Shown here piece by piece: positions 15,380 through 20,963 of a stretch of DNA of 64,000 bases. The first letter of the stretch is position 1, and every line of letters starts with the position of its first letter. This DNA is from Acidobacteriota bacterium (GTDB lineage: Bacteria; Acidobacteriota; Thermoanaerobaculia; Multivoradales; J023): contig JAJCXO010000156.1 of the NCBI GenBank assembly GCA_029263395.1, positions 1 to 64,000 on the forward strand, read 5' to 3'. Under the pieces are notes generated by a model. The model was not told the origin of the DNA, searched no databases, and was given only the letters and a program-made list of their open reading frames with translations. A program made the translations under genes and the position numbers.

Positions 15380-17011
15380 ATGAAGAACCCATCCACAAAC
15401 GCTCGAGTCACGAACCGATGGTGGTGCGCGGCACTATTCGCCTTGTCCGCCCTCGGCTTCCTGATGATGTTTCTGTTCCAGCCCCTGTTCGATACCAACT
15501 TCTGGATCGCATGGTGGATCGCCTTTCCGTCCCTACTCGCTGCGTTATGGATGAGCAGCCGCCTGTTGTGGCGCTCGAAGCGCTGGTGGGTCAAGTCGGG
15601 CGCCGTGTTGGTTGTGTTGATCGGAGTCGCGTTGATTGCACCCGTGATCTTCGTGATCTACAAGCTACAGGCTGCTGGCGCGTCGATCCACATGCTGACG
15701 ACGGCGGAGAACAGCCAGCTCCCGGACTCCCGGAAGATCCATCAGCTTTACCTAGAGCTCGAGTCGACCCGAGCCGAAGACGCTCCGCCCATCGTCTATC
15801 TTGCTGGAGGCCCTGGCGGCGCTGGCTCTGCAACGCTTTACCTGAGTGGTCGGTACCCGGTGTTCATGGCGATGCGCGAATTTGGTGACGTCATCGCCTG
15901 GGATCAACGCGGCACGATGCCCTGGAACGATCCTTTCCTGCTCTGCCCGTCAACCTGGGATTACCCGCTGGACGTTCCTTTCGAGCTCGATCGGATGCTC
16001 GACCACCAGCGACCCTTTGTCGAGTCGTGTCGGCAGCACTTTCAAGACAAGGGTGTTGATCTCGCAACCTACACCACCGCCCAGAGCGTCGAAGATCTCG
16101 ACGATCTCCGCCGCCAGCTCGGTAGCGAACAGATCACGCTATGGGCCACCAGCTACGGTACCCACCTGGCGTTGGCCTACATGAAACGTTACCCACGGCG
16201 CGTCCATCGCGCCATCTTGCATGGCACCGAAGGGCTCGACCAAACCCTCAAGCTACCGAGCCAAGTGCAGGCGGCACTCGAACACACCCGCGAGCTGGCA
16301 CAGTCGGACGCAACGCTCAACAGCACCCCACCAGACATGCTGGCAGATCTCGCGGCGGTGCTCGCCGAGTTCGAGCGGGGACCCAAGGAGATACCACTCA
16401 ACGACGACGAAGAAGGAGCCACCAGTGTCGTCATCGGTCAGGAAGACGTTCGGTTGATGATCGCCTTACAGCTCCGCAACGGTTCCTCCAGATCCAAACT
16501 CCCGCGGATGATCGCCCGCATGCAAAAGGGCGACTTCTCTCGGGTTGCTGGTTTTGCCGCCAACATCCGGCGCTACAGTCGTGAGTCGCTGATGCATATC
16601 AACATGGACTGCGCTTCGGGCGCCACCGAGGCAAGGCTCCAACGTATCAATACCGAAGCCTCCCAATCGCTGCTCGGGAACATCATCAACACGGGTTTTC
16701 CAGAGATCTGTAACCTCGCCGACAGTCCGGATCTCGGCAACACCTTCCGTGCGCCATTCCAAACCGATATCCCTACCCTCTTCATCAGCGGCACCCTGGA
16801 CGGTCGTACCCCGGTAAGCAATGCCGAAGAAGTCCTGACCAGCTTCACCCAAGGTGAGCACCTGATCATCGAGGGCGCCGGTCATGGCGACGAGCTTTTC
16901 GTCTCGGCGCCGGAGATCTTGGTCGCTATGCAGCAGTTCATGCGCGGCGAAGTACTCACCGTCCACCACATCCGTGTGGCCTTCGAATTTGCGCCGATCG
17001 AAGGTGACTGA
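15380..17011 (+). CDS. membrane-anchored alpha/beta hydrolase (S33 aminopeptidase-like)
   Basis: ATG 15380 follows AAGGAG. The 543-residue protein has three hydrophobic segments in its first ~95 residues (about 14-36, 41-58, 71-93), then an alpha/beta-hydrolase domain. The oxyanion element is YLAGGPGGAG, and AWDQRGTMPW is as in proline iminopeptidase and tripeptidyl aminopeptidase. The nucleophile is Ser258 in WATSYGTHLAL, so the elbow reads A-x-S-x-G instead of the usual G-x-S-x-G. Asp474 (SGTLDGRTP) and His502 (GAGHGDE) complete the triad. Substrates are likely peptides. It stands alone, divergent from the kinase gene. Confidence 0.85.
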   Translation: MKNPSTNARVTNRWWCAALFALSALGFLMMFLFQPLFDTNFWIAWWIAFPSLLAALWMSSRLLWRSKRWWVKSGAVLVVLIGVALIAPVIFVIYKLQAAGASIHMLTTAENSQLPDSRKIHQLYLELESTRAEDAPPIVYLAGGPGGAGSATLYLSGRYPVFMAMREFGDVIAWDQRGTMPWNDPFLLCPSTWDYPLDVPFELDRMLDHQRPFVESCRQHFQDKGVDLATYTTAQSVEDLDDLRRQLGSEQITLWATSYGTHLALAYMKRYPRRVHRAILHGTEGLDQTLKLPSQVQAALEHTRELAQSDATLNSTPPDMLADLAAVLAEFERGPKEIPLNDDEEGATSVVIGQEDVRLMIALQLRNGSSRSKLPRMIARMQKGDFSRVAGFAANIRRYSRESLMHINMDCASGATEARLQRINTEASQSLLGNIINTGFPEICNLADSPDLGNTFRAPFQTDIPTLFISGTLDGRTPVSNAEEVLTSFTQGEHLIIEGAGHGDELFVSAPEILVAMQQFMRGEVLTVHHIRVAFEFAPIEGD

Positions 17012-17064
17012 TTCACTCGAGTAACACCGTCGCCGGACCGCCTGGCCGCAATACAGAATATGAT

Positions 17065-17071
17065 GTTAGGC
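17065..17071 (+). other. GTTAGGC core site, putative left edge of a gene cassette
   Basis: GTTAGGC matches the GTTRRRY crossover consensus of integron attC sites, with exchange expected between G17065 and T17066. It lies 121 bases before the SDR start and pairs in sense with the GCCTAAC at 18040-18046 after the gene. The 7-mer alone could be chance; the support is its position opposite the attC-like hairpin. Confidence 0.45.
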
Positions 17072-17185
17072 CGCCGAAAGAGAGTGACTTCATGTCAATC
17101 GACGCGTACTGCCGAACCCAGCCTCGACCGTCGCGGCGGCCTCACACGATCATGGAGGTCGTGCATCGAGAGGAGAGCATCTGAG

Positions 17186-17992
17186 ATGACTGCATTCGCA
17201 GAATTCGAGAACCGAGTTGCCGTGCTGACAGGCGGCGCGTCCGGTATCGGTCGTGAACTCCTAAATCAGTTGGTACTACGAGGTGCGCATGTGGCAGCTT
17301 GCGACATCGATAGCGACAGACTGGAAACGGCGGTGCGGCGGGCTCGGGCGAGCAACCCTGAAGTACGCGTGACTGCACACGTGCACGACGTATCTGATGA
17401 AAAGTCGGTTGTTCGGTTGGTGAAGGAAGTCGCTAAAGAACACGGAAGTGACGCGATCCACTTGTTGTTCAACAACGCCGGCGTGGTGGGCGGCGGCTCG
17501 TTCGTCGTCGGACAGCGCGACGAGTGGGAGCGTACGTTCGCGGTATCCTGGTTCGGCACGTACTACTGCACCCGAGCGTTTCTCCCGATGCTCGTTGCTG
17601 CGGATCAGGGTGTCATCGTCAACACATCCTCGGTGAGCGGGATTTGGGCCAGCTTGGGGGCGGGATCGCCTCATACGGCCTATTCAGCGGCGAAGTTCGC
17701 GGTCCGGGGTTTTACAGAGTCGCTTCTTGTTGATCTCCGCGCGCACGCTCCCCATGTCTCTGCTGTGCTGGTCATGCCAGGCCATGTCCGTACCAGGATG
17801 CCGGCTCCTCCCCGGTCATGGCGCCGTGCGCTCAACTCACTGTTCGCCGACTATCAGCCAGTGACCAGCAAACAGGCGGCGGAGGCGATCCTGAACGCGG
17901 TGAGCAATGGCGACTGGCGGGTAGTCATTGGGCAGGACGCTGAGGCAGTCGACGCACGTGTCCGAGCAGATCCATATACGGCCTACGATTGA
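17186..17992 (+). CDS. short-chain dehydrogenase/reductase
   Basis: Start set at ATG 17186, ten bases after AGGAG; the frame is open upstream to 17060 but that part is Arg/Ser-rich and not SDR-like. The 268-residue enzyme has the cofactor loop TGGASGIG (15-22), the NNAG strand end, the Ser region NTSSVSG and the catalytic pair Tyr166-x3-Lys170 (YSAAK). Asp in ACDID at the end of strand 2 suggests a preference for NAD(H). The usual active-site Asn helix position reads VSWFGTYY (Ser). The substrate cannot be read from sequence. The gene lies between GTTAGGC and an attC-like hairpin, so it may have arrived as a cassette. Confidence 0.93.
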   Translation: MTAFAEFENRVAVLTGGASGIGRELLNQLVLRGAHVAACDIDSDRLETAVRRARASNPEVRVTAHVHDVSDEKSVVRLVKEVAKEHGSDAIHLLFNNAGVVGGGSFVVGQRDEWERTFAVSWFGTYYCTRAFLPMLVAADQGVIVNTSSVSGIWASLGAGSPHTAYSAAKFAVRGFTESLLVDLRAHAPHVSAVLVMPGHVRTRMPAPPRSWRRALNSLFADYQPVTSKQAAEAILNAVSNGDWRVVIGQDAEAVDARVRADPYTAYD

Positions 17993-18039
17993 TTGAGAAT
18001 GAGGCTGTGCGGCCGTGGGGCTTCTCGCTCTGCGCGGCT

Positions 18040-18121
18040 GCCTAACAACGCGCATGAACGCGGACAGAAGAGCTTCGTCGCTTTGCTCCGTAGCTCTTCC
18101 GCCGATTGTGCGTAGTTCCGA
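18040..18121 (+). repeat. attC-like imperfect hairpin after the SDR gene
   Basis: GCCTAAC (18040-18046) begins a ~80-base region that folds back on itself. AACAACGCGCA (18044-18054) pairs with TGTGCGTAGTT (18107-18117) with one mismatch and one G-T, and GAAGAGCT (18067-18074) pairs perfectly with AGCTCTTC (18092-18099), separated by unpaired GACA-like bases. Two stem blocks with extrahelical bases and an AAC/GTT outer pair are the hallmarks of integron attC sites. The 3' core reads GTTCCGA rather than GTTRRRY, as it would if the cassette sat at a non-canonical target. Confidence 0.5.
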
Positions 18122-18226
18122 TATGCAACCGAAGAACGAAGAGGCCGATACCCAATCATGACCATGAGCCCTATGCACTGACCGGCAGGGTCTGTTCCCA
18201 AACGCCAACGGCGTTTTATATCGAAG

Positions 18227-18288
18227 CCCAGGGTAAGCGAAGCGCCACCCTGGGGAAAAATGCAACCACACCCCCAACCCTGAAGGGT
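18227..18288. repeat. paired REP-like hairpins
   Basis: CCCAGGGT (18227-18234) pairs with ACCCTGGG (18247-18254) across a 12-base loop, and ACCCT-GA-AGGGT follows at 18277-18288. They resemble dispersed hairpin repeats of large environmental bacterial genomes. They lie in the 382-base gap 17993-18374, which has no gene apart from the attC-like element. Confidence 0.6.
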
Positions 18289-18374
18289 GGCATCGCCATG
18301 CCTCAGATGAACGAACGAGTATTGAGGCGCCAGGGGTTTCGGAGAAGACGCATCCCTTTGGTACGATCTGCACC

Positions 18375-18959
18375 ATGCAACGCGCCAAAGACTGGCCCGG
18401 AGACAAGTCCGCCCCCGACGGCTTGCAACTCGTGGTGAACTTCTTGAACACCGTGGATCACGAAGCGGGCACCGACGCTCTCGCCAGTCCAGCAACGCTG
18501 GCCACCTGGCTGGAACAGCAGGGTGTCTTCTCTCCCGCCACCGAGCTCAGTGAGTCGGACCGAAGGCGCGCCCTCGCCGCCCGCGCCGGGTTGTGGGCTG
18601 TGGCAGCCGACCACAGCACCGCCTACCGCAACCAGGGCGGTGACCGGGACGCCATTGCCCAGCTCGATACGTTGGCCGCGACGGCAGTCACCACTATGCG
18701 TTTTGATGCCGACGGAACCGGCCGACTTGCCGCCACCGCCAAGGACTTCGATCAGGTCCTCGGTCACCTCTTCGCCCTGGTCGTTTTTGCCCAGCGTGCC
18801 GGCCACTGGTCGCGGGTCAAAGTGTGCGCCAACAGCGCCTGTCGGCGGGCATTCTGGGATGCCTCGAACAATCGCGGGGGCAAATGGTGTGCCGTCCGAC
18901 GTTGCGGCAATAAACTCAAAGCGCGCACCGCCCGCAGCGCGATGCGACGCTGGCGTTGA
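18375..18959 (+). CDS. ABATE-domain / CGNR zinc-finger protein
   Basis: The 194-residue protein has the CGNR family layout: an N-terminal stress-associated (ABATE) domain starting GLQLVVNFLNTVDHEAGTD and a C-terminal zinc finger with Cys in CANSACRRAFWD and WCAVRRCGNK, then a basic Arg/Lys-rich tail. CGNR proteins are thought to be DNA-binding regulators, often near detoxification or antibiotic-related genes. It starts at ATG 18375 without a strong ribosome site and lies between putative mobile repeats and the small gene at 19002. Confidence 0.9.
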   Translation: MQRAKDWPGDKSAPDGLQLVVNFLNTVDHEAGTDALASPATLATWLEQQGVFSPATELSESDRRRALAARAGLWAVAADHSTAYRNQGGDRDAIAQLDTLAATAVTTMRFDADGTGRLAATAKDFDQVLGHLFALVVFAQRAGHWSRVKVCANSACRRAFWDASNNRGGKWCAVRRCGNKLKARTARSAMRRWR

Positions 18960-20139: not shown

Positions 20140-20661
20140 TCAAATCTCCACTGTTGAGTCCATCGTTGCAGTGGTCATAGAACCAACACTCCAGCGAGAT
20201 TGCGGTGCCGCAATAAACGCCGACGGCAAGCGTGACATTGTCAACGATGCGACCATGTCTCTAATCACGACGATATTTTTTGCCATCTCCGCAGTAGGGG
20301 CTGCAGCACGGGCACTGCAATAAGTCGCGAGCGCATGATTGAGAAGAGCGTTGAGGCTCATGTTTTCGCGACGGGCGACCTTCGCCATCTGAGCATGGAG
20401 CGAAGATGGCATGCGAAGCGAGACCCGCCCACTGAACTCGGTACCGGTTGGTTCTGGCACCGTGTAGCCGCCTTCAAGGCGAGTCTCAATCCAAAGCTCT
20501 CGCGCGGCATCCAAGTTTTCTGTCGCCTCATCCGCTGTCTCTCCCTCGGCCATGCAACCAGGCAAGTCCGGGTGTGTGGCAAAGAACCCATCTTCGCCCT
20601 CCTCCTTTGAAAGCTCGTACGGGTAATTGATCCGCATGTAATACGAAAGATCTTTTACCAT
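20140..20661 (-). CDS. hicB: HicB-family antitoxin with C-terminal RHH domain
   Basis: The 173-residue protein has the HicB N-terminal fold (YPYELSKEEGEDGFFATHPDLPGCMAEGETADEATENL), the degenerate RNase-H-like domain that caps HicA, then a ribbon-helix-helix DNA-binding segment (GRVSLRMPSSLHAQMAKVARRENMSLNALLNHAL). The last ~45 residues are an unassigned extension. GGAG lies before the ATG at 20661, and the gene starts 11 bases after the toxin stop. HicB neutralises HicA and represses the shared promoter. Confidence 0.93.
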   Translation of the reverse strand: MVKDLSYYMRINYPYELSKEEGEDGFFATHPDLPGCMAEGETADEATENLDAARELWIETRLEGGYTVPEPTGTEFSGRVSLRMPSSLHAQMAKVARRENMSLNALLNHALATYCSARAAAPTAEMAKNIVVIRDMVASLTMSRLPSAFIAAPQSRWSVGSMTTATMDSTVEI

Positions 20662-20672
20662 TATTAGACTCC

Positions 20673-20963
20673 TTAATTAACGGTGTCGTCGCCGGAGCTC
20701 CCTGCCTTTCGGTAGAGCACCCTAACCTTGTCGATCTCAGCGAGCGCTTGCTTAACGGCACCGATTTTCATCGTCCGCTCATGCGGCTTGTGGATCGTCA
20801 GTGTGATCTCGCCGTGTGACCAAGCGCGCAGATTGTCGTTCCTGCGGCTCCTCTTGCCTCTCTCGAAGCCCCAGGCTTCGAGTAGCTTCTCCATCTTCTG
20901 AAGCGTACAGCCACGAGGGTCTTGCTGGACAATCTCATACTGTTTCTCTGGCGACTTCGCCAT
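20673..20963 (-). CDS. hicA: HicA-like mRNA interferase toxin
   Basis: The 96-residue product fits a HicA-type dsRBD fold: KMEKLLEAWGFERGKRSRRNDNLRAWSHGEITLTIHKP, with candidate catalytic His58/His61 in the ITLTIHKPHERTMK strand, then helix GAVKQALAEIDKV. HicA cleaves mRNA in a translation-independent way. The order toxin then antitoxin is normal for hicAB. GGGAGGCAGGAA precedes the start. It is longer than minimal HicA and somewhat diverged, so the family call leans partly on the neighbouring hicB. Confidence 0.85.
   Translation of the reverse strand: MAKSPEKQYEIVQQDPRGCTLQKMEKLLEAWGFERGKRSRRNDNLRAWSHGEITLTIHKPHERTMKIGAVKQALAEIDKVRVLYRKAGSSGDDTVN

Follow-up and report, generated by a model that had tools for sequence, protein, structure and literature searches.

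The window, a stretch of 64,000 nucleotides, belongs to a 171-kb contig (C156) of an Acidobacteriota genome of 10.7 Mb in 291 contigs. Some 18 kb into it, a gene for an SDR oxidoreductase follows an alpha/beta hydrolase gene and precedes a gene for an ABATE/CGNR-zinc-finger regulator (Table 1). The SDR gene is the only gene between the heptamer GTTAGGC and its reverse complement GCCTAAC, a motif that occurs in a single copy on the plus strand of the window, and it is oriented as the attC site that GCCTAAC opens. The preliminary description had taken this arrangement for a lone integron cassette, and both heptamers and the gene are located where it had placed them; the imperfect hairpin that it described, with two stem blocks and bulges, was seen again in the computed fold of 18040-18121. 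Beyond the SDR gene, the right flank contains a REP-like repeat, GAAGCCCAGGGTAAGCGAAGCGCCACCCTGGG (18141-18305), which is partially matched at approximately 25 other places in the genome; these repeats were considered as the source of the empty site and discarded, since they do not reach the junction. Further downstream, the minus strand carries a gene for a HicB-like antitoxin (20140-20661) and, upstream of the latter, a small ORF (20673-20963) that by its appearance resembles a HicA toxin.

Table 1. Features of the SDR locus, with positions in the window.
Feature	Position	Strand	Basis
alpha/beta hydrolase gene, 5' neighbour of the SDR gene	15380-17011	+	also conserved in the same-genus genome
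Left crossover core GTTAGGC	17065-17071	+	sequence; exact reverse complement of R''
Integrated cassette (probable), 1055 bp (1050 bp with the right crossover at 18115)	17066-18120	+	left core G|TTAGGC, gene, attC orientation
SDR oxidoreductase gene, 268 aa, TGGASGIG and YSAAK motifs	17186-17992	+	PF00106, E = 1.5e-43
attC site	18040-18126	+	R2, 16.4 bits; homologous to C232:105748-105834
R'' core GCCTAAC	18040-18046	+	sequence
L'' arm ACGCGCA, pairing with 18107-18113	18048-18054	+	fold
Inner box GAACGCGGAC, same letters in the C232 attC	18056-18065	+	sequence comparison
L' arm TGTGCGT	18107-18113	+	fold
GTT, right crossover of the preliminary description (alternative boundary)	18115-18117	+	sequence
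GATATGC, favoured R' and right junction	18120-18126	+	broader attC model R2; alignment to C232
ABATE/CGNR-zinc-finger regulator gene, right flank	18375-18959	+	best same-genus match 39% identical

Homology and fold of the probable attC site

Two attC models were built from integrons of the same phylum, R1 from 11 sites that excluded those of the genome itself and the broader R2 from 57 sites. The site at 18040 was not detected by R1 (below 5.2 bits), a model that does find attCs elsewhere in the same genome. With R2, it was the top match and the only attC in the 64-kb window, in the right orientation and starting exactly at 18040. The score is weak (E = 0.077 per 64 kb) and falls short of significance at the scale of the genome; nor is it fully independent, as the training set included the sibling site on contig C232. 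That sibling was also the one other match returned when the hairpin was compared by BLAST with the 10.7-Mb genome (C232:105745-105815, E = 4.2e-4); within about 1 Mb the same comparison gave E = 3.5e-5, and 0 of 200 shuffles matched as well. The C232 site is the terminal one of a two-attC remnant, the partner attC lying 1.9 kb upstream (R1, E = 1e-4). The window and C232 sites have identical inner boxes (GAACGCGGAC and GCCGATT) at an identical spacing of 35 nt, and the pattern GAACGCGGAC..GCCGAT does not recur anywhere else in the genome. Moreover, two L''/L' pairs differ on both sides and yet stay paired (G.T to T.G and C-G to G-C), as judged by hand from the two sequences only.

The fold of 18040-18121 reached -16.8 kcal/mol (z -1.55), and when the cassette ends were joined as in an excised circle, which completes the outer stem by a 7-bp pairing, the value fell to -22.2 kcal/mol (z -4.3, equalled in 0 of 300 shuffles). 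Shape by itself was nevertheless within chance: when the dinucleotides of the window were shuffled 60 times, a reciprocal 7-mer pair accompanied by a hairpin as stable arose at a rate of 0.67 per 64 kb. An Rfam search of the window gave no match. What sets the site beyond chance is not its shape but its sequence, which is homologous to that of another attC in this genome. We favour its reading as an attC with foldable R'', L'', L' and R' elements, for which the model score speaks weakly and the homology to C232 strongly.

The left core is the reverse complement of R'' at 7 of 7 positions; in the arrays of the genome, the left core and the R'' of the same cassette agree at 7, 7, 6, 5, 7, 7, 7 and 6 of 7 positions. 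The right end had been placed at the GTT of 18115, where the spacer from L' to R' would be only 1 nt long, compared to approximately 5-7 nt in the inspected attCs of this genome. Both R2 and a manual, gap-free alignment of the 3' arm with the C232 attC put R' at 18120-18126 instead, and the boundary G|ATATGC at 18120 is probably to be preferred. The earlier right end would then be 5 bases short, and the empty site predicted along with it (ATGATG|TTCCGATA) is probably displaced by the same 5 bases. GATATGC also terminates two other attC-like sites (C167:27003-27058 and C152:5588-5686); on C167 the R'' that comes next, GCATATC, is its reciprocal. Entry of the cassette into the chromosome by way of such a G|AT core, a variant used in at least one array of the genome (on C167), is a tentative proposal of rather low probability.

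Flanks of the probable cassette and integron remains elsewhere in the genome

Model scans and BLAST identified neither attI nor attC in the flanks of the cassette: the left flank did not resemble an attC (1.8 bits at 17032-17071) and gave no significant match when compared by BLAST with the attI-like part of contig C173, and no GCATATC of a following cassette was found downstream to the right. With its position 18 kb into a 171-kb contig and no other attC in 64 kb, the site is therefore solitary. The only other genome of the genus has unrelated sequence downstream of the hydrolase gene, so that no empty site was seen in it.

It had been proposed that no integrase lies nearby. This held for the window, as none of the integrase matches listed is on C156, but not for the genome, in which an intI gene is present on contig C272 in two overlapping frames (L017:1219-2140; TIGR02249, 298 and 100 bits), which could reflect a pseudogene or a sequencing error. 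Across the phylum, intI was found in 88 of the 297 genomes searched. Further attC sites form arrays on C173 and C167 or are scattered over C7, C111, C194, C152, C187 and C232, several of them close to contig ends, so that some may belong to broken arrays. C173 opens with 201 bp that also follow, at 99% identity, the integrase gene of C272; this shared stretch is probably the attI region. Since a frameshifted intI, attC arrays and scattered sites all occur in the genome, a local source of the cassette is possible.

The C173 array (L128:1554-10519) includes the non-RRRY cores GTTCTGC, GTTCGAC and GTTCGGA. RelA/SpoT-like, TIR and HNH-type proteins are encoded by its cassettes, and it is split by a region that looks like an IS91-type transposase. 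In the C167 array (L018:11458-15749), one cassette boundary is G|ATATGC and not G|TT, and the cassettes encode DUF4062 and AAA ATPase proteins. Upstream of this array lies an IS91 transposase with a tyrosine recombinase, which was considered as an IntI and rejected, as it scored under the integron cut-off and adjoins the transposase. Isolated attC-like sites at L120, L121, L126, L135 and L136 scored 46, 48, 37, 33 and 26 bits with R2, the first three having been part of its training set.

Such remains could also mean that an integron array once stood at the locus and lost, by deletion, its platform and the cassettes on either side of the decaying one that is left. The frameshifted integrase gene, the scattering of attCs, the two-attC remnant on C232, the break in synteny with the same-genus genome at the right flank and the recurrence of GATATGC at two other attC-like sites all agree with this explanation. 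It is nonetheless unlikely, as the left flank resembles neither an attC nor the attI-like stretch, and no downstream attC with the reciprocal core GCATATC was found.

Distribution of the SDR gene and origin of the probable cassette

A search of 396 genomes of the phylum found the SDR gene in this one only, the other 395 yielding no match at E <= 1e-60. Its relatives belong to four other phyla, with identities of 85, 84, 84 and 81% to Candidatus Chloroploca, Comamonas, Fuerstiella and a Gemmatimonadetes MAG, respectively, and the homology to these copies stops at the stop codon and at most approximately 40 bp before the start. This distribution supports horizontal acquisition of the gene, which we count in favour of a solitary cassette. 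No recognisable attC was seen next to the orthologs in other phyla, and none of these provided a second instance of the SDR gene as a cassette. A GTTAGGC upstream of the SDR gene at L062 was set aside, as it appears to overlap the stop codon of the neighbouring gene, behind which no attC was found. The plasmids searched held no similar attC and only SDR matches below 60% identity, and the viral contigs searched gave none. An SDR gene acquired otherwise, near which a GTTAGGC and an attC-like hairpin merely happen to lie, would fit the chance level of the shape, the negative R1 result and the lack of SDR orthologs in cassettes, but is the least probable explanation and a rather improbable one, given the homology to a second attC of the same genome that no shuffle matched, the compensatory changes, and a hairpin correctly oriented and placed directly behind an acquired gene.

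The locus is thus most probably a single integron cassette, made up of the SDR gene and its attC, that lies outside any array at a chromosomal target which is neither attI nor attC and would resemble an attG site. The claim of a solitary cassette gains support from the attC homology, the fully reciprocal core, the orientation, the acquired gene and the lack of any other attC in the window. A cassette circle would have recombined, through its folded bottom-strand attC, with a secondary site of the attG type; the enzyme would have been an integron integrase, probably that of the genome itself, now frameshifted. The target would have lain 54 bp past the stop codon of the hydrolase gene. Weak tests found neither a terminator-like site between the hydrolase and SDR genes nor a sigma-70-like promoter before the SDR gene and, as the two genes also run in the same direction, read-through from the hydrolase gene could express the SDR gene.

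On the account given in PMC12444791 and PMC12901181, Loot et al. (2024, Nat Microbiol 9:228) described single cassettes integrated at attG sites. The cases are alike in that a chromosomal cassette occupies a target other than attI or attC; the present one differs in being a natural case from an environmental genome, in having a target deduced and not observed empty, and in a right core that is possibly G|AT rather than G|TT. With attC-bounded cassettes that have no adjoining integrase, the locus shares this trait, differing in that the window has one attC only, and IntegronFinder 2, with its default threshold of two attC sites, would therefore not report it. The sedentary chromosomal integrons of the same phylum have attC architecture and reciprocal cores in common with this cassette, whereas the locus has neither integrase nor array; in a complete integron intI stands beside the array, and here it is on C272.

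On this reading, the locus exemplifies well a process known from earlier work, and not a new one. Here a cassette occurs naturally outside of any array, in a genome where the decayed integron persists. If the G|AT reading is true, this integrase lineage would accept non-GTT cores, and cassettes could reach a wider set of chromosomal sites than with the well-studied integrases. If the solitary cassette is confirmed, cassette genes can settle in chromosomes beside other genes, and attC relics can help to trace the movement of genes, such as this SDR, across phyla.
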